Positions 701-35,300 of a stretch of 64,000 nt of DNA are shown here, piece by piece. A program made the position numbers and the translations under genes. The DNA is from Fragilaria crotonensis (Eukaryota; Bacillariophyta; Fragilariophyceae; Fragilariales; Fragilariaceae). Position 1 is the first letter of the stretch, and each line of letters starts with the position of its first letter. The stretch lies in the NCBI GenBank assembly GCA_022925895.1, contig JAKSYS010000256.1, positions 1 through 64,000 on the forward strand, written 5' to 3'. Below the pieces are notes generated by a model. That model worked only from the letters and a program-made list of their open reading frames with translations. It had not been told where the DNA came from and did not search any database.

Positions 701-2400
701 TTGCATAATGCCAACATCAACAGAAATATGGCTGAAGTCATGATGATGAACCCAGACGCCGGAATCGGTGACCCGGGAGAGGACGAAGTTCAAGGAGGTA
801 TATCAGCTGTGCTCCAGCTGATTGGATTCGAAAATGATATCGAGAGAAACGAAATCATGGTAGCAGGGATCGGTCAGTTCGTAAAAACGTAAAACGTGAA
901 CTAATTATTGGGTTGACACCATGTACTGGCCGGTAGGCCACTACTGTGTACCCGTGATCGGTCAGTTCGAAGATTTTTGCTACCTGGTTGAAAAGGATAT
1001 CAGGACATGGCCGAGGATGAGTTTGGTAAGAGGACAATCGCCAATGGAAGAATTGGATTCGGACTCGGGCGCACAAAGAAGTTGATCGATGTAATGCACT
1101 GGATTCAAGACTGCTTCAGAGCAAGCGATGTGCCAAACCCTTTGAACTTCAAGGAAGCGGTACTCTACCAAGCGTTAAGTTTGGCGCAAGTCCGTAAATC
1201 GGATATCGATCTCGTTTCTACGAACTCGAAGGAAGCGGACCCTGGGAAATTCAAGGACGAACGTAAGTGGCCGGAATGGGAGAAGTCCTTTACGAATTTT
1301 CTCTCCGTTATCCCAGGTGTCAACGGAATACCACTCTCGTACGTGGTCCGTGAGGTTGAGGAACCAGCGGAAGAGGCCGAGTACACGGCATTCAACGAAA
1401 GGATGACGAGTCGGCCCCCCCTTGTTGGTCAGTACTTTGTGGCCGATGCTCGCAGAGTCCACAACTTGTTGATTGGATATCTTCAAGGTGAGAACATCGA
1501 GACATGTATTTGCAGTATTGCTGAGTACCAAGACGGACGCAAGAACATGATGGCGCTGCGGCGCCACTATGCAGGAGAAGGGAACTCTACAAGGCGCATT
1601 GCAGATCCAAAGAAGATTCAAAACACCCTGCATTACAAAACAGAGAGAGCGATACCCTTCAACAAATTCCTTGATTCATTACAGCGTATGTTCACCGTAT
1701 TTGAGGAAGAGAATGAGCCATTGACAGAGCGAGCCAAAGTGGACGAGCTGCTCACCAAAGTCCAACACATGGCACTGGGAGCAGCGGTTGCACAATTAAG
1801 GTACCAGTTGAACACTGTGGGAATTACATTTACCGTTGCTGCAAACCACCTGAACTCCGAAATATCACAGACCCCGGACTACCAAATGTCACGAAAGATC
1901 AGCTCTATCAACACCCCTGGTCGGGGAGGCCGCGGAGGCCGAAGTGGATCTGGCAGAAGCGGACGCGGCGGCGGTCGTGGTCGTAGCGGGAGAGGAGAAC
2001 GAGGAAGCAACAATGGAGCGACAGGATACTATTCGCCAGAAGAATGGCAAAAGTTATCCTACGATGAAAGAGATAAGATCCAAAAAGATCGCGACAAGAA
2101 AGGCGAACAGGGAGGGACAAAGCGGGCTACTATCTTGTCTATCTCAGAGCTGACGACCAAGCAGATAACGACTGCCATCATCAGCTTGCTTCAGAAAGCG
2201 GCAACCACGAGCGACAAAGAAAGCGAGCTTGTGAGAAGGCTCAAAGCGCGCAGGATAAGTTCAAATTTGATAGTGGATCCATGAACGACAAGGATTGGGG
2301 AGATGTGATCCGCTGGGTTCTCCCTCAGGTGAAGGTTGACTTCCTGTTAAAGGATTTGAAGAAGACATCAGAAGGTGGAGAATGTTAACTCTGTCATTAT
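701..2400 (+). mobile_element. Copia-like (CoDi-type) LTR retrotransposon fossil, gag part
   Basis: This is a remnant of a Ty1/copia-type LTR retrotransposon of the kind common in diatoms. The largest open piece (1007-2284, 425 codons) has the usual diatom copia gag layout: a conserved W-and-F rich N-terminal half (about 1260-1800), a region with ALRRHY and FEEENEPLTERAKV wording, then a Gly/Arg-rich RNA-binding-like segment (about residues 300-345) and a basic tail. A shorter upstream piece from about 727 looks like the start of the same gag. No protease, integrase or reverse transcriptase follows, so pol is missing here. A purine tract near 2370-2383 followed by TGTTAAC could mark the border of a 3' LTR, but no second LTR was found. 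The copy is broken, with a few breaks, and looks moderately old. Confidence 0.7.
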
Positions 2401-2898
2401 ATGTTAATTTTTTGTGAGATGTGATTCATATATTGTTATTAGACACGGCTATATGGTTAAAAGTAAATGCAATATTGCTCAATAGTTGATATAATAGTCA
2501 TTTGTTACGGTATATATTTGAAAGTAATATTATTGATTGTTACCTTAACAAAATATCAAATTTAAGCATTGTAAGTCATAACATGTTTGGTTATTATGCG
2601 TCACAGTCGAATAAAGTGGTTAAAATTACGACATATATATTCTGATCTGACCATCATGGTTTATGGAATGACCTACGCTTATCACGCACTTCTTGTTTCT
2701 ATTGAACGGTATGTGTCTTACATCCCACATTTTTGTTATTGGATTGGAGAAGGGGATTACGAACGAACCATTTCTGGCTTCATTGAAAATAATCATTGTA
2801 CACCAATCATTTCTCGCAAGTTTTGTTGATCACAATAAAACATTTGTGTTCTGTTCTCATCACTCTGCAAATTAACGCAATCATCAGCAGGGATCAGC

Positions 2899-5800
2899 AT
2901 GTCAATGTCAACTAATGCTTGTGCCGTTTGTGGAAAGAGTTTCAAGAGGCTTCAGTCCCACCTCGCTCAAAATTTGGCATGTAAATCATTCTACATGTCA
3001 CGTGTCAATGCAGCATCTGCAACAGTGGCACCCACCATCCCGAACGACAGCATTGCGAACACAACTAATGCGTCGCAAGGCGGAAATCGTTCCACTTTCC
3101 CGAATTCGAGGACTTCACTCCGTGGGAGCGGTGCATCTGTAAGAGGAGAGGCGGGGGATCCTCTGCATCACGTCAACGATTTGAACGCAGTTGACGATGA
3201 CAATTTTGTGATGTTTGAAGACAACGACGCTGGCAATCAGGATACCTTCAAAGAAACTGAAGAAGAGGACGAGGAAGGTCCTGATCTTGGTGTGTTGGAT
3301 TTGTGTTTGGAACTGTTCAAGCTGCGAGCGAATCCACTAGGTCTCGCGCAATTTTCCCAGGAGGAGAAGGTCCTAATTGAGTTATTGGATCTCCTTAGAA
3401 AGCTGCACTGTCCTCTCAAAGCATTTACCGTCATACTGAAGTGGGCTGCCAAATCAAACGCAAGTGGTCATGTGTTCCGCGAGGGTTTTCAACCAACTCG
3501 CAAGAAGGTCATCGCCAAGTTGTACGAAAGGTATAATATGAATGGACTGATCCCCAAGGAGAAGAAATTGTATCTCCCTTACACGCAGAGGATAGTGTCC
3601 ATGGTTTTTTTTATGCCCGCGAGGTGTTCGCGTCGCTTCTCTCATGTCCCACACTTAATCAGGACACAATTTTTTTTTTGATGAAGCAAAGGATCCGTTG
3701 TTTGTTGCACCACAAGCATCGTCCGATGTTGGTGACATACACACAGGTCGTTGTTACAGAAAGACGTACGATGCCCTGATAAAGGACCCCGGTGTTGACA
3801 TGCTCCTACCTTGTGTCATGGCGATGGACAAGACCCACATCGACATGGCCGGACGGCTCCAGATGGAGCCCATAACAGTCTCACACGGCCTTTTGAACCA
3901 CATTACGCGCCGCCTTCCAAGCGCCATGCGCATCCTTGGATACATCAATCACAGCACCCCCGCCAACCTCCCATCGGACGCCGAAATTGATCCCAAGTTC
4001 AATGCACCCGCAGACTTGCCAAAGGATGTGCACCGCGTCAACAACCCAATTCGGTGCCCTGATGAAAATGTCAGCTGGGCGACATTACTCCTCAACGAGA
4101 CACATGCAGATCCAGTTTATTCTCGAAGAGTCTGGTTTTTTCAGTTACAAAAGTACGGCTTCCGATGGAATCTGCAGTACAACGGAACAATGCACCCCGT
4201 CGTGTTCCACCCGTATGTCCCGTTCATCATTGGTGACACAGAGGGTCACGACCGCCTATGTGGGCACTACACCGCCCGATTTTCACAGATCAAACAACTT
4301 TGTCGCATCTGTGAGTGCCCTACATACTTGACTGGTTACTCGAAGTCTAAGTTTCCCACCGCCTTCCGAGAAAATGGACACCCTTGTACGCAAGGGTTTT
4401 ACCAACGAGCTCCAATTGCTGTCACAGACCTACCTTAACACCGGCTTTGCCAGGGTTCGTTTTGGTCTGCACAATCAGCGGGGCATTTTTGGTGCCTGTC
4501 CAGGTGAGATGCTGCACTTGATTTCTCTTGGTTGGTTCAAATACTGCCTGCAGGCTTTCTCCACCCAAGCCGGTCCCAAGTCCAACGCATTGAAGGAGTA
4601 CGATCAACTGTGTGCAAAATTGGGCCGCAAACTGTCAAGACAGAGTGACCGCGACGTCCCGCGAACCAACTTTCCCAAGGGATTCTCATCAGGAACCAAT
4701 CTGATGGGACACGAGATGGCGGGGTGCCTCTTGGTGAAGTTATTTGCGTTGCACACCACCTGCTTCCGCGCTATCTTTGATGTCGGGAAGAAGGAACCGA
4801 GACTTGGGGTTCCCGACCAAAGGCTTCGTTACGAAAACCATGTCACCGATTGGATTGACATCGTGACTGCTCTTCTAGTGTGGCATCAATGGATGAAGCA
4901 ACCATCCATTCCAAAGAAAATGGTGAAGCGTTCGCATGCGGCAGTTCAGTGGCTGATGCGTGTTGTTGCTGAAGTGGCACCTCGCCCAGGAGCAATGGGA
5001 AACAACACAATCAAGACACATTTGGTCCTGCATCTGTGCGAGGACATTCTTGACCACGGCGTCCCAGAGAATGTAAACAGTTCGTACGCGGAGTCAGCCC
5101 ACATTCCACTCGCAAAGGTAACATCACGGAACACCCAGAAACGAGCCGTTTCATTCACCAAGCAAGCTGCCCATCGCTATGTTGAGAATCTTGTTGTATC
5201 GCTTGCTTCCGCGGACATGGACACCGAAAAAGCGATGCCTGCAACAGAGCAGGTCAACCCGTTGCATTACTTGTTGACGGCAAGGGTGGCCGACACTTCA
5301 ACCTTTCATGGAAGACTGGTGATGAATTTTCAGCGTGCCGCTGGACTCACCCGTCTCCTGGTGACAACATGGAGACAGCCCACCTTTCAACCCGAGTGAT
5401 GGACTTCCTGAGTCAACACTGCTTGCCCAAGGTGCCACAGCACTCACTTCCATGCTTCACATTGTTTACCGACGGTAAGGGCAACAAGTACCGCGCTCAC
5501 CCCTGTTACGATGGCAAAGCCTGGAACGACAGCGCAATGATCAAGTGGGAAGGATACCCGCAATTACCCAGCATTCATCCACACCTTTGTTGATCTTCGC
5601 GGGCTTCCAAACGGAGAGCGCATTAACATCAAAGCAAATGGGCAGAAAAATTTGGAAGCCGGATTGTACGCTGTCGCCCATTCGTTTGATCCAGTTTCCG
5701 TTGGTGACCTCGACACTCCAAACACTCTCATAGGGCGCTACACCCCACATTTCCACTCACCCGATGAGAGACATCCCACCTTGTTCCTGGTGGACGTCAA

Positions 5801-6248
5801 GTCAATCTTATCTCCAGTACTCGGCATCGAAGACGTCCCCCCATTTGGAGTAGAGAAAGCGCCGAGGCGCAAGCGGTGTCACCTGTTTTTGATCCGTCGG
5901 AAGGCGGAGTGGCCCCAAGCGTGGGATTCTCTCATCAATAAGTGTCATCACGATTTGGAACACGACGTCGACGACGACACTTGGTTTGAAGAGGAGTACG
6001 AGAAAGAATTCGTCAGCCGCCTGCCAAGTGGCCGGGAGGTGCATAGGGTCAAGACCCCCGAAGAGTTTGGAGCCGAGGTTGCTGCAAAGAAGGCCGAAAA
6101 GGTCGCTGCCAAGAAGAAGAGGGAGGACACCGCCACAGAGAAAGCGGCGGCAAAGGCTGCGAAGGCTGTGAAGGCCACCGCCACACAACAGTCCATAGGG
6201 AATTTGAAACGCAGAAGGGAAGCTCCCACGAAGACAAACAAGGGGTAG
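2899..6248 (+). pseudogene. CMC/Plavaka-type transposase, decayed
   Basis: This would cut and paste the element. The start at 2899 opens on a C2H2-like finger (CAVCGKSFKRLQSH then a distal Cys), then an acidic stretch. The catalytic part begins near 3800 with VMAMDKTHIDMAGRLQMEP, followed by an RRLPSAMRILGYINHS block, a CRICECPT zinc-binding-like motif near 4300 and a GEMLHLISLGWFKYCL block near 4500; these are hallmarks of Plavaka-like transposases. The tail (5420-6248) gives an FTDGKGNKYRAHP block, a GRYTPHFHSP block and a basic coiled tail. The reading is spread over all three plus frames: frame 1 from 2899, frame 2 to 4438, frame 3 to 5399, then further switches near 5380, 5570 and 5700. 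At least two early shifts fall in T homopolymers (3604-3611 and 3670-3679). Some breaks could be introns or sequencing errors, but the number points to decay. Confidence 0.75.
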
Positions 6249-6488
6249 GCAGTCCTTTGGGTGCCATCAATGATAGTACCAGTAGAAGGAGTAGTTTCAG
6301 TATTCAAATCGAACATGTTGTTTATTTTTTTTGTTTCCTCGGTATTGTGTACCTTCCACCAACCTCCAGGTCAGTTGGCCGCACCCGCCAGCCACCAAAA
6401 GCCACACTCCCACCAGCTGTACGTGTTTCCTTGTCCACGCAAGCATCTGTGCAGCGGGGTGCCCGATCGCCCACAGCCGGCACCCAAT

Positions 6489-9074
6489 TTAGAGAACGGA
6501 ATCGCCACTTGTTGCCACCATCATCGGTGGCATCTTCATTCTGCCAGTCGGCATGGGATGGAGAATCACGACCAAGATCTCCTTTCTTCCGTTTGTCGGA
6601 ACAGCATGGCCACTCGCCACAAGCAGCTCCCTTCCAACAAACCAGCGGCACGACGGAGGGGAGCTCAACTGTCGGCTCGACAGATGCGAACTCAACAGCA
6701 GGACAACCTGCGACCACGGCATCCCTGGATTCAATCCGAGGCCCCCACGGGGTCTTCTCCTCCTCCTGTTTGGCCGCTTCTTGCGATCCACCACCGCTTT
6801 AACAGGAGAGGGCTTTTGGGGACAGAAACAGTCGGCACACGCGGCGCGCCCCGCCTCCACAATTTTTTCCTTCGCTGCCGTGAAAGTTCCATAAAGATAA
6901 TTTCGGAAGGGAGACTCCCTCTTCCTGGCAACAAACCCACGTTCCATCCCGTCTGGACAGGAAACTGACGTGCAGTGCCGGATCACCCTGCCATCCCAGC
7001 TGATGGCCACGCCGTGGCCAAGTTTCACCGCCATGCCACTGAACTTGGTTTTCGTGCCCGGTCGCAGGCCACACACACTGGGGATAACAAAATACCAGTT
7101 CTTCCCAAGGCCCAGCACCTCCTCTGTCCACACACTATAGCCCTGCGAGGCATCGTTCACGTCGTAGTGCAAGGAATTGCCCAGGTTTATGCTCATATCG
7201 ACGGTGTATCCGACCCGTTGTCTACGCTCCAACGCCTCCATTTTCCTCCGAAGTTTCTCGCGAAGGCAATCGCCATCGTCTCTTTCGTCGTCGTCATCAT
7301 CATCATCATCATCATCATCATAATTCTCGTTGTCGCAATCCGACCCACCCCCGCACGACCCCCCAATTGGAAGGGCAACGCCATCCATCGGTGGCACCGG
7401 ACTCAGTCCAGAGTTCTCCTCGGTGTCCCTTATCACGGAGTATACCACAGGGAAACAGCGACTCCCAAGGGTTGCCAAGTCAACCACGAGACCCCGGAGG
7501 ACACTATCCAAAACACATCCATTGGCTGCGTAAGGAATTTTGCCATGAACAGCAAGGCCTGTTGGGGACTCTTTTTTCTCGATTCTGGTGCCCAGTGCAA
7601 ACATTGAACCGACATCGGACGACTTAGCCCTGGCAGTGCCCTTCGCCCCCGACACTCGGATCTCACGACACCACGATGTCAACCGCTCCAGCAACTCAAG
7701 GTGGTCATCGCATGCACTGATCTTCGTTACGTTCCGGATGGCAACAACAGACTCACGGTTTGGAATTCCATCGACGCGAACGTGAACATCAACAAAGTGA
7801 GTTTCATCCGGATCAATGATCCAGCAAGACTCCGGCAGATTGTAGTGGTGGCTGCCGTCAACGTAATGCCGGCAATCAAACTTCGCACTACTAGAATTTT
7901 TGAGTTTGTTGCGGAATTCATGAGCGCGGTAGTCAGCAGGGACAGTCCGCAGGTCAACACCAGCAATGAAATCCGGTGGTAACGCAGGTAATTCAGCATC
8001 ACTATTGTGTACGGCCCTGTACACCACCCGATTCTGTAGGGAACTGGGTAGGTACCCCGTGGAGATCCTCCATACAGAAACGCGGCGGTTGTCGCCTAGA
8101 CCGTGATCAAAATAGAACCGCCTCACAAAGCTGTCACCGCCAAAGGCATACAACGGGAAGTTGTGTTCTGTTCCCTCCACCTCTGCAAGCGGAGCCAGCT
8201 CATATCGTATGCTCTCAGCGTGCCCGGCACGCCAGCATCCCCAATGTGACGGTCACGGTGACAATAGAACACCCCACACTGAGGTAGGAACAGAATTGCA
8301 GCCCGGTAGAAATGATCCATCCCAGGGCCAATGTCTTCCGGTTTGCGTGACAGGGCATGACGAACTGCATCGCAGTCACACAACGGCCGCCACCACCACT
8401 CCTCCCCCCTTTTCACCGCCAGTCAAAACGGCCGGTGAAGGAGCCCGATTGAGTATCACGTCCATCACGTAGAACTCGTTGAGGAACTCCGACTGGAGTC
8501 CGGACTCTGGGAACATGTCGGCAGCCGAACGCAATTGAAACGGCTTGCATCTAAAAGCCTTTGCAATGACGCTCACGGGAGTAAAACACAAGAATTCGCG
8601 GCACTCCCTATCACCACCCTTGATTGCCTTCACGAATCTCCGCCTGAATGCACTCCTCTCCTCCGGAACAACGGCCATGGACAACAGCGACATAATGCGC
8701 TGATGAGTTGGGCGATTCTGCCTCTCGTCGCGCCCAGTAGGAAGGAATTTCCCACCGTCCGCCCCAACACTCGCTCCTGGAACACGTGGCGAGTTCCCCA
8801 GGTTCCTGACACACGCCATAGTTGGGGAAGTCTTATTCCCGGTCTCCGCAGCCTTCTTCTTTGCAAACTTCCTCTTCTTTGGGAGCTTCTTTGTCTTTGC
8901 CAACCCCACTCCCACCACCTTCCTCTCCACCGCAACCGTCACCCGGTTCTCCACAACAACCTCCTCGCCGACGCAACCAACGTCGCGTCGATTTGGCGAC
9001 ATCGGGCTCTCTACTGCTTCCTGGCAGGTAGTGAGCCGCACAATGCCAGTTCCGTGTCCTTTTTGACGAAGCAA
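6489..9074 (-). pseudogene. Transposon accessory protein, putative 2OG-Fe(II) dioxygenase-like (copy 1)
   Basis: The function is unproven. The N-terminal piece (9074-8376) is basic (KKLPKKRKFAKKK, possible nuclear signal). A middle piece (8416-8123) holds YRAAILFLP and GVFYCHRDRH blocks. The long C-terminal piece (8180-6489, 563 codons) carries an acidic tract coded by an ATC microsatellite at 7288-7322, then SINLGNSLHYDVNDASQG, VWTEE, NWYFVIPS, GHGVAISWDGRVIRHCTS and YGTFTAAK. H338 and D340 (about 7169-7161) with H402 (about 6977) match the H-x-D...H iron triad of 2-oxoglutarate dioxygenases; K437 or a nearby Arg could bind 2OG. Every one of these blocks recurs in the copy at 29.1-32.3 kb. 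The three pieces overlap in different frames, so the gene has two frame changes or undetected introns. It is convergent with the Plavaka transposase. The dioxygenase reading is inference from motifs; conservation between the copies is seen directly. Confidence 0.55.
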
Positions 9075-9753
9075 TCAACACGCTTCCTGGCGCGGACTGT
9101 CTATTCGTCTCAAAGGAAGCAAGAACGATCCGACGGCGACGTTATGTTGCAAAACACAATCAATGAACGAAGTACTTCATAGAAGTACTCTGACACCAGA
9201 TTGTGATTTTTGGTGTCAGTGCGCGCAGAAAACAGGCAAAACAAGATACACTACGTGCTATGCAAAAAAAGGCAACTTCATACATGGGAACTCCTACCAA
9301 GACCTTTAAATGAGGTGCATTTACTTAGAGTAATTGCAAGAGTACAGCCATATATACATGCTTTTCATATACAGATTTAATTCGTAGCAATGTAAATAAT
9401 GCATGTGTGTATATGTAAAATGAAATGACATGCACATTGCATAAATATTTCGTGCTTAAGCAAATTCAATAGTCAGAAAAAAACAAAATGCTTATTTACA
9501 TGTATGTATGATTTATTATTTTCCCATGACTGGACTTCATACTGCTACATGGACATCGTACTGCAGCGTACGTATCAACAGTAGTCAAATTTTTATGATC
9601 CGTGTCTCAAACTGTCATAAGATTCATAATCCACCTATGTATTCAACGCGACACACATATTCAAAGATATGTTAATAAATATATTTGTATACACCGTACT
9701 AATAAACATATATACACAAACTACTAGTAGTACCACTGCTGCGTACGACATTT
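9075..9753. other. Intergenic, AT-rich, no gene; hairpin at 9190-9219
   Basis: No coding region is supported. CTGACACCA (9190-9198) and TGGTGTCAG (9211-9219) form a perfect 9-bp stem with a 12-nt loop, about 115 bp upstream of the accessory gene's first codon; it may be a subterminal structure of the transposon. The rest is AT-rich with homopolymer runs. Confidence 0.5.
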
Positions 9754-9831
9754 CACACTGCACACTGCACACTGCACACTGCACACTGCACACTGCACAC
9801 TGCACACTGCACACTGCACACTGCACACTGC
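9754..9831. repeat. Heptamer microsatellite (CACACTG)n
   Basis: About 11 head-to-tail copies of the 7-bp unit CACACTG, nearly perfect. It lies about 280 bp upstream of the GT92 gene and beside a GTAC-rich island at 9848-9885. Confidence 0.95.
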
Positions 9832-10111
9832 ACCCTCCACAATGTTACCAGGTACAAGTACCAGGTACTCGAGTACGACGTACACTTGCATGCATACCGC
9901 GAATCGCGAATTGCGACAGGTAAAAAAAGGTGCGTTTGTCGTGATTTTTGATCTGACTGATATTTAACCTCGAGCACTTCAGAGGTCAGAGGAGTTCATT
10001 CTTTCCCCGATCATCGAAATGCATCGTACAGTTCAGAACATTCACCCACCAGCAGTGTTATCTTCATCCACCAGCAACCATTAATTTCGACTTTGTTGCT
10101 CATGCGTCACA

Positions 10112-12569
10112 ATGTCTAGTCTAACTCATCGACGAACTTCTGCAGAGGCGTTACGCAGACGCGGGAAAAGGTTTTCAGAAGCTACGTTGTTAAGAATGCT
10201 TTTCGTAATGCTGGGAGTGATATTTGTTCTGTACGCCACTTTGATGGTTGCCATTGCAAGATACACCCATTTGTATCCTCCTTCCCTTAAGGCCCATTCT
10301 CTTGATTTGCCCCTAGGGAATGGATCTCCTCATCAGCAGAGGCGCGATCTGAGGCCTGCCCTACACCCAATTCTGGTTGTTGAAGTCAGATCACAGACTG
10401 AAACGCGAAAACCGACTCCGATCGCGTTACGACCATCCATAGAGTGGAAAGATAAGATTTTGAAAGCGTACCTCGAGCCTGTGGATCAGAGTTCTTGGGA
10501 TGTCAAGCCATTGCCTGTTAGGACAACGACATCAACTAAATTGAAGGTCGTCGAATACCCTCAACTATCCTCGTGCTCGAGATTGCCGGAGCAGTGGCCG
10601 GTGGACGATTATCCAGAAGAGGATCCCTTCTTGCCTTGGATTCACGATGTTTTCCCCACTTATGACGGCAAGTTCATTCAGTTCGTAGCGCAAAACCGAA
10701 GACGATGTGACACTGGGATGAGCTATGTTGATCGAGCCAAGGTCAAACATCGACTACCTCACCTTGCCTTGTTTCAGCATGTTCCAGTCAAACGCATTGA
10801 CGGGGGTCGCTATCGTTTATCGAGTCACGACGAAGCAGATGCAGACGGAATGGAAACCCGTTTCATTTGTCGATTCAAACCGAGTATGGACGAAACGCTC
10901 TCCGTGCATAACTTTAATTATGATTACGTGTCATACAGAAAGAGTCACAAGCAAACCTTCACGGAGCTGGGGAAATGGGATGTCAAATCGCTCCATACTT
11001 CCCAACTACTCTTTCGGTGCCCCGTACCCGATTACTTACAACAACAAGTTCGGGATGGCACGTCTGTGATCGACGATTTTGCCACCCTCTTTGTTGACCT
11101 TATTCCGATAAGAACTCCACCGCGCTTCGAACCGCCAGATTCGTTCCTCCCTCCACGGTATGAAAAATTTACCAACAAGACCGCTGAGTTCAAGCCAGAG
11201 GAACACTGGGGTAGTGCACATGTTCTTCCAGAGATCGATGACAGCGGACGCTGGGAAAACGTTCCAATTTGTAAACCTTCGTTGATGACTTATGAACCTG
11301 AAGCAGATTTGAAAACGAGGGTGGAACAAAAGAAGCCTTATAAGCTTGTTTCGTGTCTTTGGGCATCTGCTGGTTATGCCACGCGAGGGGATCGCTTCTC
11401 TATCAGCGACGGACAGCGACGCCTCAGAGAGTGGCTGCACTACGTCTTCTTGGTGGGCTTTGATCACGTCTATGTTTACGACAATAGCGGCGCCCAATCA
11501 AACATGACGTCATTAAAGCCTATTATTGATGAATTTCCGGGCAAGGTATCGAGAATAGTATGGCCTTCCAAAGTGTGCAATGTAAGTATTTTATTCCTTC
11601 GTGTTCCCCTGTCCACGAAGACCCCATACCAACACCACGACACTCAGAACAACAGAAACTTCGCTGACAGCCCTGGTGAACGATCGTCCCAATATGCAGC
11701 CGAGTCATCTTGTCGTCTGAGGTTCGGGGATCACACGGATTGGATTGGCCAGTTCGACATAGACGAGTATTTGTCGCCACAAGGCGACTTCGATTCTTTA
11801 CCTCCACTTCTCGACAAGCTGGACCAAGAGGGGAAGAAAATCGTCTCCTTCGGGTCTTGGAGAGCGTGGCCAAGGAAGAATCTTATTGAGTAAGTGTTTC
11901 CCCCTAGCTTTTGCTGGACTTTGCCTGCTGCACTCACACATTCTCTCGAAAAGGAAACCTGTCAGAATTAATAATAGATCGCTTTGTGCGTCCACGTTGC
12001 CTTGCTTTAACGTCGAAATCCCCGCCCAGAGAACAATTCTTCAGGCTTACAATTGCGATCGGCAGCGGGGCCAGAAAAAGGAGAAAATGCCCGCTGAAAA
12101 GCAGCTCTATCGACCAGACTACGTCAAACTCCACTTTGTTCACTACTCAACAGTGACGCTCCTTACGTTAATGAACCGAGAGGAGACCGAACGTTTTGGT
12201 CGGCCATGGAGAAGGCATCTTGCAGCAGATCCGCTCTCGCGATTTGGAAACGAAGTCACCGAAGCTACCATGCTTCATGCGAAAGCCATCGCGACACAAG
12301 ACACTGCGGGCTGGTTGACGGCTTGCAGGTTGGGATCTAGTCAGATGTGTCGTATCGGCAACCCTTACCCCGAAGGCGCCGAAGAAGCTGGGATAACTGC
12401 TGATAGCGGCAACTGGACCTACAACTGGTGAGTGGATAGTGTTTGGTTGTACGATCTTTGCCCGCCGATCAACTAATGGTGGTTTTCTCCAAGCTATGTG
12501 AACGAGAAAATCGAAAATTTCTTCGTGCCTCAGCTCGAAAAGTCCATGAATCTTTCGATGGGAAGGTAG
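10112..12569 (+). CDS. GT92-family (DUF23) glycosyltransferase, type II membrane protein
   Basis: A predicted Golgi/ER glycosyltransferase of family GT92, whose members transfer sugar to glycans or glycoconjugates; the acceptor is unknown. Four exons: 10112-11581, 11648-11889, 11954-12427 and 12494-12569. All three introns are GT-AG (66, 64 and 66 nt), and the joined frame of 753 codons runs cleanly to TAG. The first intron is a multiple of three and has no stop, so a naive frame reads through it. A basic N-terminus and one hydrophobic segment (about residues 27-49) suggest a type II signal anchor. The catalytic domain has VGFDHVYVYDNSG (448-460) and WIGQFDIDEYLSP (522-534), the usual GT92 metal and donor-binding block. 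The C-terminal exon ends PQLEKSMNLSMGR. The start is the first ATG after a stop-rich leader. Gene structure and family are well supported; the substrate is not. Confidence 0.85.
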
Positions 12570-22630: not shown

Positions 22631-23083
22631 GTTAGAGGAACTCGTAAGATTCGCATCTGTGTCCGAGCTGCAAGTACTTCGATTCCAAGACACCTGACCT
22701 AAGGATACCTGCTGCTTTTGGTGTAAACTCGAACCGTTCACCAACCAAAATCCTGCCGCTTACGTTGATATGGACCAGCGTAACAGCATGCTAGATAACA
22801 AGTTGACACCGTTGCATCCTACCACTACATTTGAAGTAGAAGCGCGCCGGAACTTCTGACTTTCCTCGTCGTGGCATCCTGCTGGGGCACCCGTACGAAG
22901 CAATCCCCATTATCGCCTTCATGAAGAAGCCCTTGCTGATTGAATCTGTGGCAACCTTTCCCTCTGATACCACTGTGATGTTATCGTGTAGCAGGTCGCC
23001 GTGTGCGCCTTGCTTCGTTTGCAACGCTACGGTGAAGGGCTGAAAAGAATCGGGTTTTGATTTGATGCCGATTATGTGTCAAT
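22631..23083. other. Convergent intergenic region with one small minus-strand frame
   Basis: The ABC1 kinase (+) and TPR gene (-) end here. A 77-codon minus frame (23024-22791, MQTKQGAHGDLLHDN...) has acceptable composition and a splice-like TTTTCAG ahead of it. It could be an alternative last exon of the TPR gene (joined from CAG|GTATCA near 23115), but the unspliced TPR end fits the family better. I treat it as probable 3' untranslated sequence. Confidence 0.35.
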
Positions 23084-25115
23084 CTAGCTACAGCATCGCG
23101 TTGAAACGACGCAACAGGCGCATGATACCTGGACGTCGAAGTCTGCCCACTCGCTCCTACGTTGAACCTCAAAAACATCGACCAATTCTTGGATTTCCGT
23201 CGCACGCATTTCCCTGTCTTCTCCTTCCAGAAGCCCACTGCCTACTTGTCTTCGGAGACATTGAATCAAACCAACTAGAGCAAACGGATTTTTTGGGTGA
23301 AATCGTAGGTCTGTCCGGAATACGTCAGCTGCTTCCGCCAGGTGATTGCGCTCCAAGAGGAGGCCACCAAGTGCGTGGCGAATAGGTTGCATCTTTCCCC
23401 ATGGCTCGTCATAATTCAATCCATCCTGCAATTCAACGGCCTTCCTTAACATTCTGAATGCGTCGTCGTATCTTCCTTCGTGATAGGCAATCTCTCCACG
23501 CAACATTGGAGCATCAACATCAAGCAAGTTTTTCACAACGTTGTTATGAAGAATACGGTTTTCTGCAATAGGATTCTTGCGCATGGAATCATACTGATCG
23601 GCGCATTTCTTTGCCTTGTCAATGTCACCCATATTAGCGTATGCAAGGCCTCGAGAAAATGCAATAGTCGCAGTGCGAAAGAACATGATATCTTTATTCC
23701 TCGGCAATTCCACTTCGAGGATGTCCTTCCATCGACCAAAGCGTACCATGACGTGCAATTCCAGGGCAGAATAAGATTCCAGATAAGCCCCCAGATTCGG
23801 ATTCTCAGTGAATAAATCCTCTGTCAAATGCTTTCCCAGTTCTGCCGCAATCTCCATGGCCTTTGCCTCCATGCCACCCAGGATGGCACCGTAAGCTGCG
23901 AAATGATAATTGTGTACAATATAACCAAAATAGAACGAGTTTACTCCAGCAGTATCAGGGGAGCTCTTCATAGTGAACATATCAGCGGCGATTGCTCGGC
24001 AATTGAAGCGAACGCAGGATTCGTAATCGCCAACCAAGACGTCAATGTGAGTCGGCATGTGAATGAGATGACCTGCCATTTTGAAGCTTCAAACATTGTT
24101 AGAAGGTGTGATGTAAATAAGGCAAAGACTCTGTTACGTACTTGTAACGCAATGGTCCGAAATATGCCAATGCCTTGTCAGGATCAGGTGACATCTCCAT
24201 AAGGTGGACGTACAAATGGCACAACCCTACATGATCGTGATGCTTTTCAAGTGATAGCTCTAGAACATCCCTCGTTTCAACAACGTCGTTTGAGAGTGGT
24301 CTTCCAGTAGGATACTCGTACAGCCTCCATGCATTCAAGACCATCAAAGATTCAGCGAAGAAATACGCTACTTCAGGGTCATGGGGATGTCGAGAGTGCA
24401 ATTTCCGCATCGCATCAGCATAAGGACGACCAACGAGGTCATCTGCCAAGGCAGAATCCACTCCAGGGTTGCAAGTGAGTACTCTAATTGCAGATATGAG
24501 TGATGTCTCCACATCACTAACAAGCGTTGGAGCATTCTCATTGGTACTTGAGTCGAGCGGGCCATCTGATGGCGCACCAGAGTCAATCGCACGCTGCTTC
24601 TTTCCCTTCTCTTTCTTTCCTCGTTTTCCTCCTTTGCGGTGCATCCTTCTGATCTCTTCGACCGTTTCAACTGCGATTCTAGAATGACGATCGGCGAGCT
24701 GCTGGCTTGGAAAAACGCACATGTGGTCCGTTGAATTGATTTCGTCGGGATGATGAGTAGACTCATAGTATGCATCTCCTTTGAAGTTATAGTTGGGACT
24801 GTGACACAGAGCCAGCAGAGCGTGGGCCAACGCACATCGCGGAGCGAAATGCAGGGCGGCGAGGAAACACTTGGATGCAAGCTCGTGCTGATATGAGAGC
24901 ATATGTCTCAATCCCATGTTAAAATATGCACGCCCGTGATTTCCCTCATCGTTGCTATCAAGATTGCTTACTTGATCTCGACAATACGATCCCAGGTCTG
25001 GAACATACTCACCAGTGAGGTCCGGAAATTGAGTTCCATCATGGCCATCTCGGTATTGCTTCTTTGTGGTATCGGGTCCGTTGTATTGCCATCGGGGAGG
25101 ACAGTCAAAAGCCAT
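23084..25115 (-). CDS. TPR-domain protein
   Basis: A 658-residue tetratricopeptide-repeat protein, probably a scaffold; the partner is unknown. Two exons: 25115-24142 and 24086-23084. The 55-nt intron (GTACGT...GAAG) restores GPLRYNFKMAGHLIHMPTHID, and the GHLIHMPTHI block is the most conserved stretch of this TPR family, found in bacteria, fungi and algae. Helical repeats are visible at about residues 60-110 (AYFNMGLRHMLSYQHELASK) and through the C-terminal half (RGLAYANMGDIDKAKK, RGEIAYHEGRYDDAFRMLRKA). A charged K/G-rich loop (KGGKRGKKEKGKK) sits near 160. The end, DFDVQVSCACC, matches the Cys-rich tail of relatives and supports the chosen stop. The start (MAFDCPPRWQYNGPD) is the only sensible ATG. 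TATATGTCATG lies just upstream near 25119. Confidence 0.8.
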
Positions 25116-27560
25116 TTCCTATATGTCATGTGTCGCATGTGTCATGCACAACTACGTTACATGTCAGATGTCGGCGGAGTAGTTGTACTTGGTGATCGTT
25201 GCCACCCTATATGCGTACACCCTATCGGACCACTGCGATTAGATCGTAGACTCAATACTCACTATTCACTCTATGCGTCTATGCATAACCTGGACAGGGA
25301 TGCTGTTCATCATACACAGTGTACGACAGGCTGACAGGCTATCGCAGGATCAGGGCTCTCGCAGGGCTCTCAGCACTCAGGCTTCGTTTTTCATGGCACA
25401 ATGGCACGGAGTGGTTTTTGTTTCGTTCAAAGTCCATCCAAATACACCCAAAAACCACTTTCTAGACATGTTTGAGAGTTTGAGGTGGTTTTTCCATTTC
25501 GAGCTCGCAAGTGGTTTCTGCGGACAGACCTCGTACGCTGTAAGGTACGGAGGCTTCGAAGATATCTTCCCAACGAGGAGGGAGCCTCGAATTTGTCCTA
25601 CCGGCGAGGACAAAAACCTTTGAAAAGTAAAAATATGATCTTATCCGATGTGAGTTGTTGAAACGTCGATCACAAGGGGGTGGGCTATTAATAGCAAAGG
25701 AGTGAGGAGGTGGGTCAGAACTCGGAACCATGCATCAGGCAGTGTCCTGAACGGTTGCGCGCAGAGCGCTTCACCGGGGTGCGAGTCAAAGGGTCAAAAT
25801 TCTGCGGCGTGCGTCATGCTCTTTATGTCCTTGTCAGAAAGCCCAGTGGTCATGTTGGTCATCTTAAGGTGTATCTGTGCCAGGTTGTTTTTGTACTACT
25901 ACTTGTAGTTGCTGGTGGCTTCCTTGCTTCCCGGCATCGTGTTCTCCAATGGCTGCGGATCACAGCAGAAAAGGCTGAAAGCTCCAGGTTGGTCTGACAT
26001 GTACAAACAATGCTGTCCTCCGGATCACTGAGCAGAATCCTATCGGGATTCTGGCATCCCTTCCTTCCTTTTTTCAGAGGAACAAGTGCTGAAAATGTGG
26101 TTATGAGGAATGATGCCGTCCGGATCACTGTGCGGAATCCCATCAGGATTCTGGCATACCTTCCTTTCTTTTTCCCAGGGGAATTGCTGAATGTGGTTCT
26201 GTACATAGGCCATGTTGTTGTGGAGTACCAGGATTTCTGCAAAGAACTCCACTGGCTTTCGGTCGTTGTGTCACCCTGCTGTCCCTGAAACAAAAAGAAT
26301 CTGCACGCACCTTCATTGAGATGGGAAAAGACTCAAACCCAGTCCTGGACTGCAGCGGGGTCGCTGCTGCTCAGCGCATGCTCAAAAGGCTGCTCCTGGC
26401 TGCCTAATCACAATGTCATCGCTTTGTCCGCTTGCCGGCATTCCTGGGTTGACTGCCAGCCAGGACATTAATGTGGGTGGCTTTTCCCCAGTGGCTGATT
26501 GTCTGCTCATCCGTCGTAGACCGATTGTGATCATCACACTCAATACTTTGTCCTTTCCAGGTTGATTGCAATGCTCGGGATCCACCACTGCTGAGGTATG
26601 TACTAAGCAGCAACCCTCTGCTCGTCCGAGGTTATCTTCTTTTAGGGTGATAAGACAGAGGAGCTCCAGTGGATCCGTCACAAATGATTCCATTAGAGAC
26701 AGGGGATAGCCATGAAAGATGGCACAGGAACCATGGCCATCATGGAAAATCTGACCACCACTAACGTCCCCATCATCAATCCGTCTTAGGTCACTTTGAC
26801 TGATCTGGGCACAGGTCGACCCCGTTGTCATTTTCATCCTCGCTGGCTGGCGTCCTTGCCTTGCTCATGGGCAACTGTCCTTAACTAGGCTTGATGTTGA
26901 GGATCTTACAATCATCAGTTCGGCCGTCGAGTGCAATACATCCTGTGTAGAATTCCATGTGAGCATTTTCGACCAATCATAGGGCATCCTGATCAGGCTT
27001 TCATTGTCATTGAGAACTTGCATGGTGTTGAGGGTCATGGCAGTTGCTATGCTTCTACCTTGTTGTTGAAATTAGCTTGAGTAGAGGGTTTTGTTTTGTT
27101 GGTCATCCAACTTATGAAGTGGCTCTTGTTGTGTGCTGGGCTGTCCAAGTGGTGTTGCTGTGTTGACGCATCTGTGCTCCTTGTCTGTCTGTTTCTTGTC
27201 TGCTTTTGTTAGTCTGAGTCTCACATCTGTCTGACCACGCCTAATCTTCAGACAGCATGCAAAGCATACACTAATAGTGCTAGACACTTATACAGTGTGC
27301 AAAGCCCCAAATCATTAAGATGTACTTAGCAGAACGCAAAATGTGTTATGATGCATTAATGCAATCATAAGCAACTAAGCTGCCGACCATCGATACTACC
27401 TACTCCAATTCTGACTCACTACTACCACTAGCAACAGCAGAAATTGAAGATGACCCTTCTGATGACAAATCTGACAATGTTGACAACAAGGAAGATAATG
27501 CAAATGACTAGCAAGGATTCCTGAGTTGCAGCTGTTTTCACTTTAGTAGCTACTACTTGT
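25116..27560. other. Long stretch without a supported gene; old repeat DNA
   Basis: No protein family is recognisable on either strand. 26012-26102 and 26117-26197 are two imperfect tandem copies of a roughly 100-bp unit starting near TCCGGATCACTG and containing GGATTCTGGCAT. A 151-codon minus-strand frame (26837-26382) and a 116-codon plus frame (25273-25623) are open but lack any domain I know. The base composition and lack of GTAC islands resemble the transposon-rich stretch that follows. Confidence 0.45.
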
Positions 27561-27569
27561 ACTTAAATT

Positions 27570-28190
27570 GAATCAATGTGATGTCGTCTCTCTTGCTTTT
27601 GTTGTTGTCCTCACTCTTTGCTGAGAACAAAGCTTCTGTTTTGAATCATAAGATCTGGAAGGTGTTGGAATGAAACCTATGGTTGCCCGCAAATGTTGTG
27701 TTGTGGTGAAGAACTTGTCATTACATAAACAAGACCCTTGGCAATCATCTACCATTCGCATTGGCACTTGAATGGATGCTTAGTAGTAAAAGCTTCTTTG
27801 TTGACCCCTACATCAAGTGGTTGGCTGGCAAGGACCTGTGCAGTAACTGGGATGTGCTTGTTGTCAACACCTAATTCCTGCACAGCTTTGACAAGAACGG
27901 AAACCATCATATAACATTGGTGAGCATTTTGTGTTGTCATTGTATACTAGGGTTTCAGAATTTTGTGAACTTGTTCACTAGCGTCACTGTCTCAACCATC
28001 CAAGCATTTTCTTGTTGATATGCAACTCCACCTCAAATCACCATGATTTGGATGATACAACAAAAATTTTGCTGAGCAATCCTTTTGCTCACCAGCTTTT
28101 CCTATGAATTCAATCGGAAGAGTGAGTGCATTACCTGATGCTGGGACAGTCATAGGAAATGTGGCTCCTTTTGCATCATTCATTGATTTT
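27570..28190 (-). pseudogene. DDE_1-type (pogo/Tc5-like) transposase remnant
   Basis: Minus-strand pieces give, in order from 28183, TVPASGNALTLPIEFIGKAG (like the beta-strand block after the first catalytic Asp in DDE_1 transposases), a short WSCISTRKCLDG piece, then from 27940 VQELGVDNKHIPVTAQVLAS followed by QPLDVGVNKEAF, which matches the well-known Q-P-L/M-D-V-G-x-N-K block, and finally DDCQGSCLCNDKFF. Stops separate the pieces. No terminal repeats were seen. The assignment rests on two short motifs. Confidence 0.45.
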
Positions 28191-29219: not shown

Positions 29220-32200
29220 GTTTTGGTTGTTCCTCTTTCTCAGGAGGTGAGCAGCAAGAGCGAGTGATGTCTCCTGGTTTTGATGCTCTTAGGCGGGGGC
29301 ATGCTGCCGTGGGGTCTGATGATCCTTACCCTGATTGTAATCCCACTCCTCAGAAACATGTTCCTGGTCCTTTTGATGATGATGATTCTGATTTTGTTCC
29401 TGGTCCTTTTGATGATGATGATTCTGATTTTGTTCCTGGTCCTTTTGTTACCAAGTTCCCTGCTGCGAAGTGTTGTCCTTCTTCTCCTGGCAGGAACGTA
29501 ACACCTGCCAACTCACCTTCCAAATATTCTGCCCACCATGTGCCTTCTTCTTATCATGGTGGGAAGGTGACCCCTGCCAAGTTGCCTTCCACGATAATGG
29601 TGAATTATTTTTCTCCTGGTGTGAAGCGTTCTGCCTTCTCCTGGTGCTGGTGTGAGTACGTTCCTTGCCAAGTACCCTTCCAAGATGATGGCAAAGGTTC
29701 TTCTCTTAGTGCTGGTGTGAAGGCAATCCCCGCCAAGTCGGCTTCGAAGACAACAGGGAAGCGTTCTCTCCTGTTGCTGGTTCTGAAGCCTTGCCTCGTC
29801 CACCTAAATTGGAGGGCAATCTTTGCAAAACACAATCCGGTGTCGGAAAAAGGCAGGTGTACGCCATTGGGGCATCAAATGCAGCACCATTTGCGTACAT
29901 TTCCCGGAGATCTGTCTTGACAGATCATTGTGGGGATGGGCTGTCCGCGTTCTGATGATCCGCCCAAACCTCGCACAACACCTCAATTGGGTGGGGAGTG
30001 TGGTCTTGATGTTGGTGATTCACAGCCAACCTCTATTGGTCCGGTAGAGATGAGTAGAAACATTCAGAAGAGAATGAGGCGTCAGCAGCGCAACCTGGCT
30101 CGTCTCACTGGCAATATTCTCCCGCTTTGTGACCATCCTTCATGATACCGTGTGACTCACTGTGCAGTTGGCAGTTTGATTGCGAAGTGTCTGCCGCAAC
30201 ATTGTGTTCCGCAGTTCCTCAAAAGTTTTCAGACATCCACGGATGACTTCAAAAAGGAGACCAAGTGTGACATTCTTTGCCACGGATAATGATGTCACTG
30301 CGGATACTCCACAAGATCCTTTTAGAAGCGTGGTTGGGACAGTGGATGCTGATATGGTTGTTAAGACACCTGTGCGGATCATCACCTCTGCAATTCACGA
30401 TGTTTTTGGGGAGGAATATGTGTCTATCAGGGCATGCACGAGCGTTGCTGCTGTCGTCAAATCTCAAAAGTGGTGTTCGTATGCTGATCTTGAGTTTGTG
30501 TTGCTTGACTGCATTCTGGCATGGAAACGCAGCTCTCATCAAGCTCACAAGGTGAAAAGGAAGTGTTCGAGGAAAGTTATTTACACTCCTGTGAAGATGT
30601 TGAGCTGCAAGTGTCAGACTGATTCTGGTACTTCCGGTGATATTGACGCTGATGAGGATGAGTGCTACAGGGCAGTCATCCTGATACTCCCGGATGCTGG
30701 TTTGTACTACTGCCATCGCATGCGGCGGCAGGAATCGGCAGGGAAGGTTCACACCCAAATCCCGATGGATATTAACTGGCTTCCTCTCCTTTGCAATCAA
30801 GAGGTGGGGACATTCCGCAATTGGTTTGGAAGCGGCTCGTACATTTTGAGGATGAGTGTGGATTCTCGACCTATGGCCTTCAAGCTCAGCATTCGGCGGT
30901 CGGAATACAATTTTCTACCTACACAACATCGAATGAAACATCTCGAGGACAAGACCCTACCTCATCAGGTGTTTCAATGCTATCAGTGCACTGATGAGGA
31001 TGGACCATGCCTACCACCTGATGTCATTGATGGAAAGGATTCTGAGCTGTCTAAAGAAGAACAACGTATTTTGTACTGAAAGAGGTATCAAGAATCTCCT
31101 CCAGCAAAACGTGGTTGCTGTCATTACTTTCATGGTATGCTGTACAAGAAGGTTGACCCAAAAGTGACCTGGGTGATGATCCTATGGATGGGTCACCGGA
31201 AGTGGATCTTCATATTACAGACCATATTGGCCCGCATAGTAGGAGGGGAAGGCTGGGCTACATTGTGTCTCTGTTTTGAAGATTTGTTACCTCCCACATG
31301 TGGTGGGTAAAGAGCAGAGCACTCCCCTTCTTTGGGATATTCACAAACAGTGCATTCAGGTGAAATGTGGAAAAAGGGTGGGGCACGTGTGGGGAAAGGT
31401 GATTATGGTAAAATGTACCCAATTGGGCATCATGCTAAAGGCTTTGAAATGAAACAATATGCTGCACCATCGCATCCCTCCGACATTCCAAAGTTACAGA
31501 AAGCGGTGACAGCGGCTTACAAACTTGCGTCTGTGACTGTACCTGCTGTTGTTCAAGTGATTCAGGACCTCAAAGATGATGCTGCAGTTCCAAGACTGGC
31601 TGGTATGCATGGTGAGAAAGGTGAAGTGAAGAGGATTGAAGGGAGGAGGGTGCTGGAGCACCGCTTTTGTTTTTTGAGCCACACGATGGATTTGAGCATC
31701 AACCTGGCTAATCATCACATTTTGACGTTAACGACGCTTCTCAGGGATTCAGTGTGTGGACGGAGGATTTTCCGAATAGTAACAAGACCTGGTACTTTGT
31801 TTTACCCAATTTGCGCGGTCAATTTCCTGATTCTGACAGAGAGTATCAGGGTGTGGCAATCAAACTTGCTCATGGTGTACTCATAAGTTGGGACGGCCGA
31901 GTTGTCAGGCATTGTACATCAGTCCGTGACAAGCCGAATCGGGATGTGTGTGGAACATTTTTTGCTGCTAAGACAAGGGTTGTTCGACAGGGAATGCACA
32001 AAGCGCACCAGGATAGGGTCAGGGCAAGGCTGCCAGCTTGGCTGCTGGAAGACAACAAAGAAATGGCACACGAGGATGTGGCAGTTTGTGAAAATGAGTC
32101 TGCTGAAGTGTTGGATACTCCACCTGATGTATCAGTTGATGGCAATGCAGAGGTTAGTGTTAGCAGTGCCCTCAAAATTTCTGAGGATGAGGATGCGGAT

Positions 32201-32290
32201 GCTGATGACATGGGATATCAATCTCAAGCGAGACTAAACATCTTATGGGAAATGACCCCTATGAAGGTGTTTGCTTATCTGAACCTGTAG
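29141..32290 (+). pseudogene. Transposon accessory protein, putative 2OG-Fe(II) dioxygenase-like (copy 2)
   Basis: Diverged homologue of the minus-strand gene at 6489-9074. The N-terminal part (29141-29920) has two 36-bp repeats coding VPGPFDDDDSDF and degenerate Pro/Lys-rich repeats. A basic block follows (SRNIQKRMRRQQRNLARL, about 30052). The main piece (30180-31079) has DECYRAVILILPDAGLYYCH, which aligns with FYRAAILFLPQCGVFYCH of copy 1. 31332-31886 has MYPIGHHAKGFEMKQYAAP. The core lies at 31700-31975: SSHFDVNDASQGFSVWTED, TWYFVLPNL, LAHGVLISWDGRVVRHCTS and CGTFFAAK. The putative iron ligands are His 31718-31720, Asp 31724-31726 and His 31910-31912. Frame changes fall near 29930, 30150, 31080 and 31710, so it is decayed. 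It converges on a MULE transposase ending about 135 bp away. Confidence 0.6.
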
Positions 32291-32424: not shown

Positions 32425-35300
32425 TTAGACTTGACACCACATGAGCCCACATGGTTGTCCAGATGACGACCCTTTGGACCTCTCTAATAACTTCCCCTTT
32501 TCACTGGCAATTGCATTTGATAGCATGTCCGTGTAATGTGATAAGCTATCAACAGAACAGTTTCCTTTGAGGATGGATGTAAGCTCCTTCAGAAGGGGGA
32601 AGAGAGCGTTATATGGAGAATTGTTCATCATCACATCATTGGAGTCGGCGTTAACTGCAGGGAAGACTAACAGACAATCATCAGTACTGTATGTATTGGT
32701 TTCTTGTTGCATGTTGCAAGGACCAAAGTCAAGACTCTTATTGTTGTCATTAATGTATGACATCAGGAAGGGATCATTGTCACATGATGATCCCTGTTTG
32801 CACCCACAAAAATGCAAGCTCTTCATTGCTGAGTTAATGGTTTGAATGTCATAGTTTTGACATGTTTCTCTGGCAGGTTTGACAACAAGGGAGGGATCAA
32901 CAACTTACTGTCGTACAACAGGTTTGATGACAAGGGAGTGATCAACAACTTGCTGTACAATGGGTGGAAGGTCAATGCCATTTGGAATGGAATGTCTGCA
33001 TATGTCATTGAAAAGCAACTTCTGGTAGAGGGAAGAAGCAAATAACTTTGCACTTGTGGTCAGAGGAGAACGCATACCTGGCAAACTCATTCCACCAAGT
33101 AGCAGAAACATCGTGGTGAGTGATACCCGCATAGCCTTTCATGAAGTGACACCAGTACATGCATTTGGTGACGGAATGGAATACCAACACGCTCAAAATG
33201 CCATCACAGGCACGAGCACAAAAGAATTTGGTCATCCGTGAGTGAGACCTTTCTCACCCTGGAGAAATGGGGTATAAGGCCAGGCGGATGCCAATTCTCC
33301 CTATACTTCAAGGCAACATGCCAGGATGTATCTCCAACCCTTTGACAAACATAGTTATTTTGCATCTTCCATTTTGCAGTGACAAGACCCTCACCCTTAT
33401 GTGTTAACTTCTGTGCAGTTGGATGTTCTGACCAGAGGGCGTTTGTCAAAATTACCTTCGCGGACTGGATTGAATTAGCATTTGCCTTTATCGGAGCATT
33501 TTGGTTCAGGATTGAAGCAGATTGATCCAAAGAATGCTGAGGTAGAATGAAGGCAGCTGCTGACTTCACGCCATTGTGTGTCCCCTTATGTGCCGAGTTC
33601 TTAGTGTAGGTGTCAAAGTGACAAATATGGCATTCTTGCTTATGAAAACAATACTAAAAAGCCTCATGTGGCTCTACATGTTCACGGATAAGTCCCAATT
33701 TGATTAGCAACAGCCTCACTGGCAACACAAAGGAAATCAGAGTGGCGCAGGTAAGCACATAGATGCGCCTTTGAAATCTTGTACTCTTCGCTCCTCAGTT
33801 TCACAATGTGGAGACATCCAGCAGCTGTAAATCCAGGCATGTATCTGATGGAAGTTTAGGCAGCAAATGCAGCTTGATTTGGCAAGGACACCGATCGGGT
33901 ACCAGGACAATGGTTCCTCCAACCACGGTCAACAATCCACCCACATTGCTCACGACAGAAATTAGGTCAATGTTTTGTAATGGCTATATCCAACAGTGAT
34001 GTTTTGCATGCGTCACCATCAGTGATTATGATGTTCACTCTGCAATTGTACTAATCCTTGCCCAACAATGCAGGCATCAAAGTTTGGATTATCCAGCGGA
34101 ATACCCATGCCCCTTCTTTGGGGAAAAAAGCACAAATGAAAGAGAACATGTGACCATTTGAATCACAACCAGTTACAGATAGAAATGGGCAAGATTCAAT
34201 ATTTGTATCTGCAGTACAATCAATGTGCAGAACGTCACTGAACATTCTGAACAATTGCTGTTCAGGTGGTGTTGTCCGTGCACACCCCATCATTCAATCC
34301 TGTTTGTTGTCCACTAAAAGAGACTCCCTGTGTTGTTTGGCAAACAACTGCATGTCACCGACCTCAGTGTCAAGAAATGTGAGCACTTGCAGTGGAGAAG
34401 TAAATGTTGGACAGATTCCATCCTCATTGCCAGTGACAACATGATGGTGCTCATTGAGCACCACGTCATCAACACCTCTCGGACCACCAATGAACAAGCA
34501 ATTCTGGTGTGCATATCACCTTTATCATGACATTGACATCTTTGACTGACGTAATGGAACAAAACACAAGGGTCAAATTTCTTTTCCCTGAAAGACTTAA
34601 GAAGCTTTGTCCACTGAACTCTCACCAGGTTCCAATTGATGTACATGATCATGTTCAGGATTGCTTGTTGTGTTTTGAAAACCAGCATTTAAGTAGCCTA
34701 CTTGACTTTGAGGAATGACATTACCTCTTCGACTGAAATGAACATTTCTGCCAACACCATCATTTGCTTTGGCAGTACCAACAGAAACCATGACATCCTT
34801 CTCCTCAGGACAAATCAGATGCGTGGGGAGAGCACACTCACCCCAAATCAACTTTGGGTGGTAACAATGCTTAGCATTGCCTCTACTCCCAAGAAGATAG
34901 AATCCAAATTGGTCCACCTTTACAACAAAACGGAAGGGGCATCAACAGGTAAGATCCAGTGTTTGCTTTGTCCGAGTCTTCTGAGGCATCTTCATGCCGA
35001 CCTGACCTCTAGAATTCTTGCAATCAGAATGGATGGTTTCACACCGATAGTGTTGCTTACTGGGACTGTGCTCATGCTGTTTTGTACCCTGATATCTTTT
35101 GAATCCTTGACCACAAGCTATCCAACGGGTATCACAGTGGCTGCCATTGCTGATTAGGTTTAACCCAGCCTCTTCCATGCCTGCACGCTTGAGGTCATTC
35201 AAGAGCTCTTTCCAGCCTTTGTCTCCATGACTGAATGCTCTTTCCAGCCTTTGTCTCCATGACTGAATGATGGAGAGTCTGAATGATTGTACCTCGCACG
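32425..35300 (-). pseudogene. MULE (Mutator-like) transposase, decayed
   Basis: The best piece (34293-34051) reads FSDVLHIDCTADTN, then LSVTGCDSNGHMFSFICAFF and EGAWVFRWIIQTLMPALLG, the first-Asp half of the MULE DDE domain. Downstream on the minus strand at about 34020 is IIITDGDA and at about 33955-33920 CGWIVDRGWR, matching the R-C-x-W-H-I-V-D-R-G-W block before the later catalytic residues. An N-terminal Cys/His region (35202-34942) and a C-terminal piece with PYNALFPLLKELTSILKGN (32826-32425) complete the usual order. Several stops and frame changes occur. Long terminal repeats typical of MULEs were not identified. It faces the accessory gene copy 2 tail to tail, so the two may form one element. 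Confidence 0.65.

Follow-up and report, generated by a model that had tools for sequence, protein, structure and literature searches.

In this work, a 64,000-nucleotide stretch of the diatom Fragilaria crotonensis (contig JAKSYS010000256.1, positions 1 to 64,000; hereafter the window) was found to carry a Plavaka-type transposon whose accessory gene probably encodes an iron oxygenase of the TET/JBP kind, which most likely modifies methylcytosine so that the element is not read as silenced. A first-pass annotation, made from the sequence alone, had noticed four motif blocks in this accessory protein. All four are indeed present on the minus strand, in the open reading frame (ORF) 8180-6489, which starts with GTG and encodes 563 amino acids (aa); residues are numbered here according to this protein, P0001. 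The H-x-D motif proposed at that stage is followed by a distal histidine, with a spacing of 64 residues between H338 and H402 in the window protein.

These putative metal ligands were clearly conserved in the family. In a first domain alignment (111 of 119 rows kept, 8 left out for odd length), H338 was found in 110/110 rows, D340 in 105/110 and H402 in 110/111. A larger alignment, in which 216 of 226 proteins were kept, the window protein included, gave the counts listed in Table 1, D340 being replaced by Asn in 7 rows, by Gly in 1 and by Lys in 1. After weighting (70% clusters, 38.7 effective sequences), H402 ranked 1st, H338 10th and D340 17th among 127 columns. Judged from these alignments, the constraint on the three residues exceeds chance, as the first-pass annotation had supposed, and they do not vary freely; since the ligand positions do vary in a few rows, some copies of the family are probably dead. 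Genomic copies whose domain was incomplete, frame-broken or nearly identical to another were set aside; among the 14 used, in which the domain is continuous, the median ratio of nonsynonymous to synonymous substitution rates (dN/dS) was 0.15 in the 44 usable pairs of 91, which shows, at the level of sequence comparison, that purifying selection acts on intact copies. Frame breaks inside the domain were seen in C773, C620 and C21.

From a structural point of view, AlphaFold2-type predicted models of two family members were compared with solved structures by VIA-align. TET2, CMD1, NgTET1 and CcTet came out on top with both models, above the other listed double-stranded beta-helix (DSBH) proteins, and TET-type entries held ranks 1-16 of the listed entries. 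Z-scores against the model of the window protein were 19.6 for TET2, 16.7 for CcTet and 16.4 for NgTET1. The predicted models thus support a DSBH fold, to which TET and CMD1 are the nearest of the solved structures, in agreement with the TET/JBP-like helix suggested at first. The putative metal triad of the diatom family is shared by TET2, NgTET1 and CcTet. The genome (62.1 Mb, 881 contigs) contains 126 pieces matching this family. Relatives numbered 118, 191 and 138 in three protein searches, and among those listed (118; 120 of 191; 120 of 138) every named one belongs to F. crotonensis. As for viral or prokaryotic relatives, 21 pattern matches in viral contigs and 26 in genome contigs were obtained, none of which was confirmed. 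A second subfamily (P0107, P0131, P0154, P0176 and other relatives) includes members as long as 1,838 aa; a Pfam scan of long ones among them (P0131, P0140, P0154, P0160 and P0176) gave no credible match.

The carrier is, on sequence grounds, a Plavaka-type element, as the first reading had it. Sharp limits are common to the window copy and the copies C649, C773, C110, C620, C98 and C546, the right end lying beyond the window copy. Termini of the CATCA..TGATG type were found at the left in 5/5 copies (window, C649, C773, C110, C620) and at the right in 4/5 (C649, C546, C773 and C110, not C98). The inverted repeats are 12 bp long (CATCAGAAGGTG/CACCTTCTGATG), and the right one, CACCTTCTGATG, is gone from the window copy and present in C649, C546, C773 and C110; because of this loss, the repeat was missed by an inverted-repeat scan of the window and was revealed by comparison with sister copies. 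Copies with both ends measure 9,564 bp (C110) and 9,585 bp (C773). Target-site duplications of 2 bp, TT in C649 and AT in C773, were seen in both copies with both flanks, the chance of a match being 1/16 each. The transposase profile PF18759 matched 3698-4435 with an E value of 4.7e-4, under the curated cut-off, and exceeded this cut-off in C649, C773, C110 and C98. The first-pass annotation had cited KDZ transposons of fungi as carriers of TET/JBP dioxygenases; Plavaka is set with EnSpm, not KDZ, according to PMC12730594.

The transposase is read rightward and the accessory gene leftward, while a third gene stands at the right end and is lost in the window copy. This third gene (C98, L010:9033 onward) encodes a basic protein, rich in low-complexity sequence, with a length of about 350-450 aa; its first 322 codons gave no Pfam match. 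The transposase and the accessory gene occur together even in copies as diverged as 65-75% (C393, C21, C30, C341, C108). A Plavaka profile match lies within 10 kb of 20 of the 59 core-spanning accessory copies, and of 23 of the 69 accessory loci; conversely, 23 of 80 Plavaka matches are near such a locus, so that most of them lack one nearby in this subset. The association was counted on 88 of the 126 family rows, with a Pfam model that misses broken transposases, including that of the window itself.

With regard to DNA methylation, single-copy transitions in six element copies affected 49/748 CpG positions and 39/2591 other C/G positions (odds ratio 4.6, p 7e-12), a pattern such as methylated CpG would give. 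The genome contains 13 matches to the C5-methyltransferase profile, among which there may be bacterial contaminants. In Phaeodactylum, loss of DNMT5a goes with depleted methylation and overexpression of young transposons (PMC9998398). The CpG pattern, the methyltransferases and the Phaeodactylum case together give a transposon-borne methylcytosine enzyme a plausible target. From a mechanistic point of view, the enzyme would flip methylcytosine out of duplex DNA, hold Fe(II) by H338, D340 and H402, read the base by D343 and R184, and modify the 5-methyl group, after which the DNA of the element would no longer be read as silenced. The element may in this way escape host silencing by DNA methylation; a base hydroxylase that hides or marks the element, as initially suggested, is likewise a role that we infer.

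Several observations weigh against this reading. The window copy of the accessory gene is broken, its split being read from the ORFs and also from gap columns against C649. The dN/dS sample leans to intact copies, since only those with a continuous domain were used. Transversions, too, were somewhat commoner at CpG (16/748 and 29/2591 elsewhere, p 0.046), and the observed/expected CpG ratio was 0.90-1.06 in the six copies versus 0.85 in the whole window, so that CpG is hardly depleted and its decay would be slight or recent; besides, the CpG excess was measured within transposon copies, not set against other DNA. As for sequence similarity, a Pfam scan up to an E value of 5 showed no TET match in the window ORFs scanned, PDB sequence searches (domain, A1, A3) returned nothing or matches at chance level, and hhalign of the family profile A3 against TET2 gave a probability of 0.5%, that is, no signal; similarity to TET2 and other PDB chains was thus not detected at the sequence level. 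The Pfam profile PF12851 (Tet_JBP) is predicted by fold to belong to the same superfamily, yet it matched neither the window ORFs scanned nor any part of the genome, and no credible domain was found in the 11 members scanned (P0001, P0009, P0071, P0105, P0111, P0131, P0140, P0154, P0160, P0176 and P0225). Finally, the residue equivalences used for the pocket derive from spacing and published numbering, and by spacing two residues are missing: the Arg at the 2-oxoglutarate (2OG) anchor place, here N427, and the Arg/His two residues past the aromatic, where A435 is Ala in 163, Ser in 15, Gly in 15 and Cys in 8 of 206 rows. TET2, NgTET1 and CcTet have both, unlike the diatom family.

The pocket is indeed where this family departs most from the expected dioxygenase. 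An Arg stands six residues before the base-contacting aromatic in TET2 (R1896/Y1902), NgTET1 (R289/F295), CMD1 (R410/F416), CcTet (R385/F391) and T7H (R286/F292) (PMC7854593, PMC11040006, PMC4787775). In the diatom family, the candidates for this last-strand aromatic are, by spacing only, F433 (Phe in 198/207 rows) and Y/F430; six residues before F433 stands N427 (78% Asn after weighting), and were Y430 the aromatic, the corresponding position 424 would be variable (Arg 16, Lys 10 of 102). W351, 13 residues past the first His, matches the place of Trp358 of CMD1, which fills the place of 2OG while Arg410 points away (PMC7854593, PMC11040006); this position is Leu339 in CcTet and Val in TET2. 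Asn mostly at the Arg place together with Trp at the Trp358 place makes a canonical 2OG pocket, as first proposed, doubtful on sequence grounds, and at this key position the pocket would resemble CMD1 more than TET. The N4 of 5-methylcytosine (5mC) is read by TET2 Asn1387, NgTET1 Asp234 and CMD1 Asp350, CcTet Gly331 being the exception, and D343 (Asp 208, Asn 6, Val 1 of 215) provides an Asn/Asp three residues past the ligand Asp as in the TET group. R184, nearly invariant in alignment A1 and, as R232 of P0107, invariant in 18 divergent rows, may be the base-stacking Arg, as a candidate counterpart of CMD1 Arg244. E353 (window 7124-7122), 15 residues past the first His and kept in 213/216 rows, would be expected to point to the same side as W351.

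Two versions of a TET-fold enzyme have to be weighed on this basis, and each of them is possible without being the likelier outcome. The protein could be an enzyme of the type of CMD1 of Chlamydomonas reinhardtii, a vitamin-C-dependent enzyme forming 5-glyceryl-methylcytosine (5gmC) (PMC7854593): it would act on methylcytosine with ascorbate, or another co-substrate than 2OG, and leave a hypermodified base, not 5-hydroxymethylcytosine. The Trp at the Trp358 place speaks for this. By contrast, at the 427 place CMD1 still has an Arg, though one that points away, and its Arg418, which is essential and reads O2 of the base, meets A435, so that the diatom family lacks counterparts of both. CMD1 Ser335, Val342 and Ile356 moreover meet Asp328, Asn335 and Ser349 by spacing, and His249 meets Asp189 at best. 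The likeness of S330, F364 and T404 to CMD1 may reflect the fold alone; TET2 too has Thr two residues past the distal His. The family is also transposon-borne and present in many copies, unlike CMD1. The second version, to be held just as tentatively, is a 2OG-dependent TET enzyme in which another basic residue (position 386, R398, R401 or K437) would bind 2OG. These residues are strongly kept (104/111, 107/111, 110/111 and 107/108, respectively), and 2OG-binding residues are known to differ between subfamilies (PMC7854593). The mostly Asn residue 427, at the place of an Arg shared by TET2, NgTET1, CMD1, CcTet and T7H, and W351, which would leave little room for 2OG, as does Trp358 in CMD1, both speak against it. 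The Lys or Arg expected after the distal His at first reading is found as K437, which is well kept; it lies 35 residues past H402, beyond a segment of variable length, and is not at the TET 2OG-anchor place.

It is improbable that the protein is an AlkB/FTO-like DSBH demethylase whose substrate would be RNA or alkylated DNA instead of 5mC: the 16 TET-type entries outrank the listed AlkB-type ones with both models, with aligned lengths of 224-296 versus 172-213 residues, and D343 occupies the TET/CMD1 base-reading place. Equally unlikely is a catalytically dead DSBH protein that the transposon would retain to bind DNA or to help assemble the transposase. A non-enzymatic part is possible, since the N-terminal half is predicted to be no less ordered than the core, but the putative metal ligands belong to the best conserved positions of the alignment. 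A TET/JBP-like oxygenase acting on methylcytosine appears the best explanation.

Table 1. Features of the window related to the accessory gene and its carrier (counts refer to alignment rows)
Feature	Position	Strand	Details
Accessory TET-like gene	6489..9074	-	split over three ORFs: 9074-8376, 8416-8123, 8180-6489
Predicted catalytic fold of TET-like type, spanning P0001 residues 43-455 in structural matches	6816..8054	-	AlphaFold2 model compared with solved structures
Conserved C-terminal core with HxD...H, residues 322-450	6831..7217	-	family alignment
H338, putative first metal ligand	7167..7169	-	214/215
D340, putative carboxylate metal ligand	7161..7163	-	206/215
H402, putative distal metal ligand	6975..6977	-	208/208
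D343, ligand Asp +3, place of base-reading residue	7152..7154	-	D 208/215
W351, H+13, place of CMD1 Trp358 / CcTet Leu339 / TET2 Val	7128..7130	-	W 204, F 10 of 216
N427, place of TET 2OG-carboxylate Arg by spacing	6900..6902	-	N 134, G 28, K 12, C 12, S 8, H 4 of 207
K437, conserved Lys past last core strand	6870..6872	-	201/206
R184, candidate base-stacking Arg (CMD1 Arg244)	7629..7631	-	loop before strand 190-204; putative equivalence
Plavaka-type element copy	2366..9753		complete at left, truncated at right against (CACACTG)n array
Left terminal inverted repeat CATCAGAAGGTG	2366..2377	+	
Plavaka-like transposase	2899..5399	+	three ORFs: 2899-3681, 3698-4438, 4374-5399
Stretch of about 230 bp	6405..6633		shared by window copy and C649; lacking in C773, C110, C620
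(CACACTG) x 12.6 array	9754-9841		directly at truncated right end of element
Second, diverged relict of TET-like family, other subfamily	31332..32290	+	frame broken at motif

The second copy of the accessory protein, reported at first reading to keep the same blocks, does contain them, with His, Asp and distal His, at 31.7 kb (SSHFDVNDASQGFSVWTED..WYFVLPN..HGVLISWDGRVVRHCTS..CGTFFAAK, read on the plus strand from 31,712). Its frame is broken: a stop codon at 31,709-31,711 directly precedes the motif frame, and MDLSINLAN, found before it, is encoded in a different frame. With 44% identity to the window protein over 95 aa and 66% to P0136, from another subfamily, over 82 aa, it is, by sequence, a distant and broken paralogue. 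Not far from it, a MULE transposase (PF10551, E 2e-6; 34051-34293, minus strand) and a DDE_Tnp_4 transposase (PF13359, E 1.3e-9; 35684-36262, plus strand) are represented by fragments. Within the element, the ORF of the window accessory gene stops inside the stretch of about 230 bp. C98 (about 22,750-28,000) holds about 5.2 kb at this place, so that the spot has been struck more than once. Between the transposase and the accessory gene lies a Lys/Ala-rich ORF of 198 aa (5652-6248, plus strand), perhaps the C-terminus of the transposase, for which Pfam gave no match. Beyond the element, the ORF 10112-11893 (plus strand) matched glycosyltransferase family 92 (E 1.8e-11) and is perhaps a host gene.

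TET passengers of fungal transposons have already been reported (PMC12730594). PlavakaB elements, the lineage of TET+ families, have CATCA..TGATG ends and duplications of 2 or 3 bp, and those with a PE-type TET share with the diatom element the Plavaka transposase, these ends, 2-bp duplications and a TET-fold accessory dioxygenase barely visible to sequence methods (PMC12730594). The diatom element differs in its HxD motif (not HxE), its host, its convergent accessory gene with a third gene, and its dozens of copies. Of the open-licence papers that the literature searches listed, none dealt with TET-like proteins of diatom transposons. What is new here is that the transposon with a TET-like passenger lives in a diatom, that this TET-like family escapes Pfam and that its pocket is altered; because Pfam misses the family, counts of TET-like genes in algae may be too low. 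With such a pocket, the co-substrate question also becomes testable in vitro.

Hypermodified DNA is known as an armour of phages. It is conceivable, though rather doubtful, that with ascorbate, or with another co-substrate than 2OG, a CMD1-like enzyme carried by diatom transposons writes hypermodified methylcytosine on the DNA of these elements themselves; such armour would then also exist in a eukaryotic mobile element, and the TET-type pocket would have left 2OG outside green algae too. More generally, a methylcytosine enzyme borne by the element would directly counter silencing of the DNMT5a type in a major algal group, with dozens of copies in one genome.
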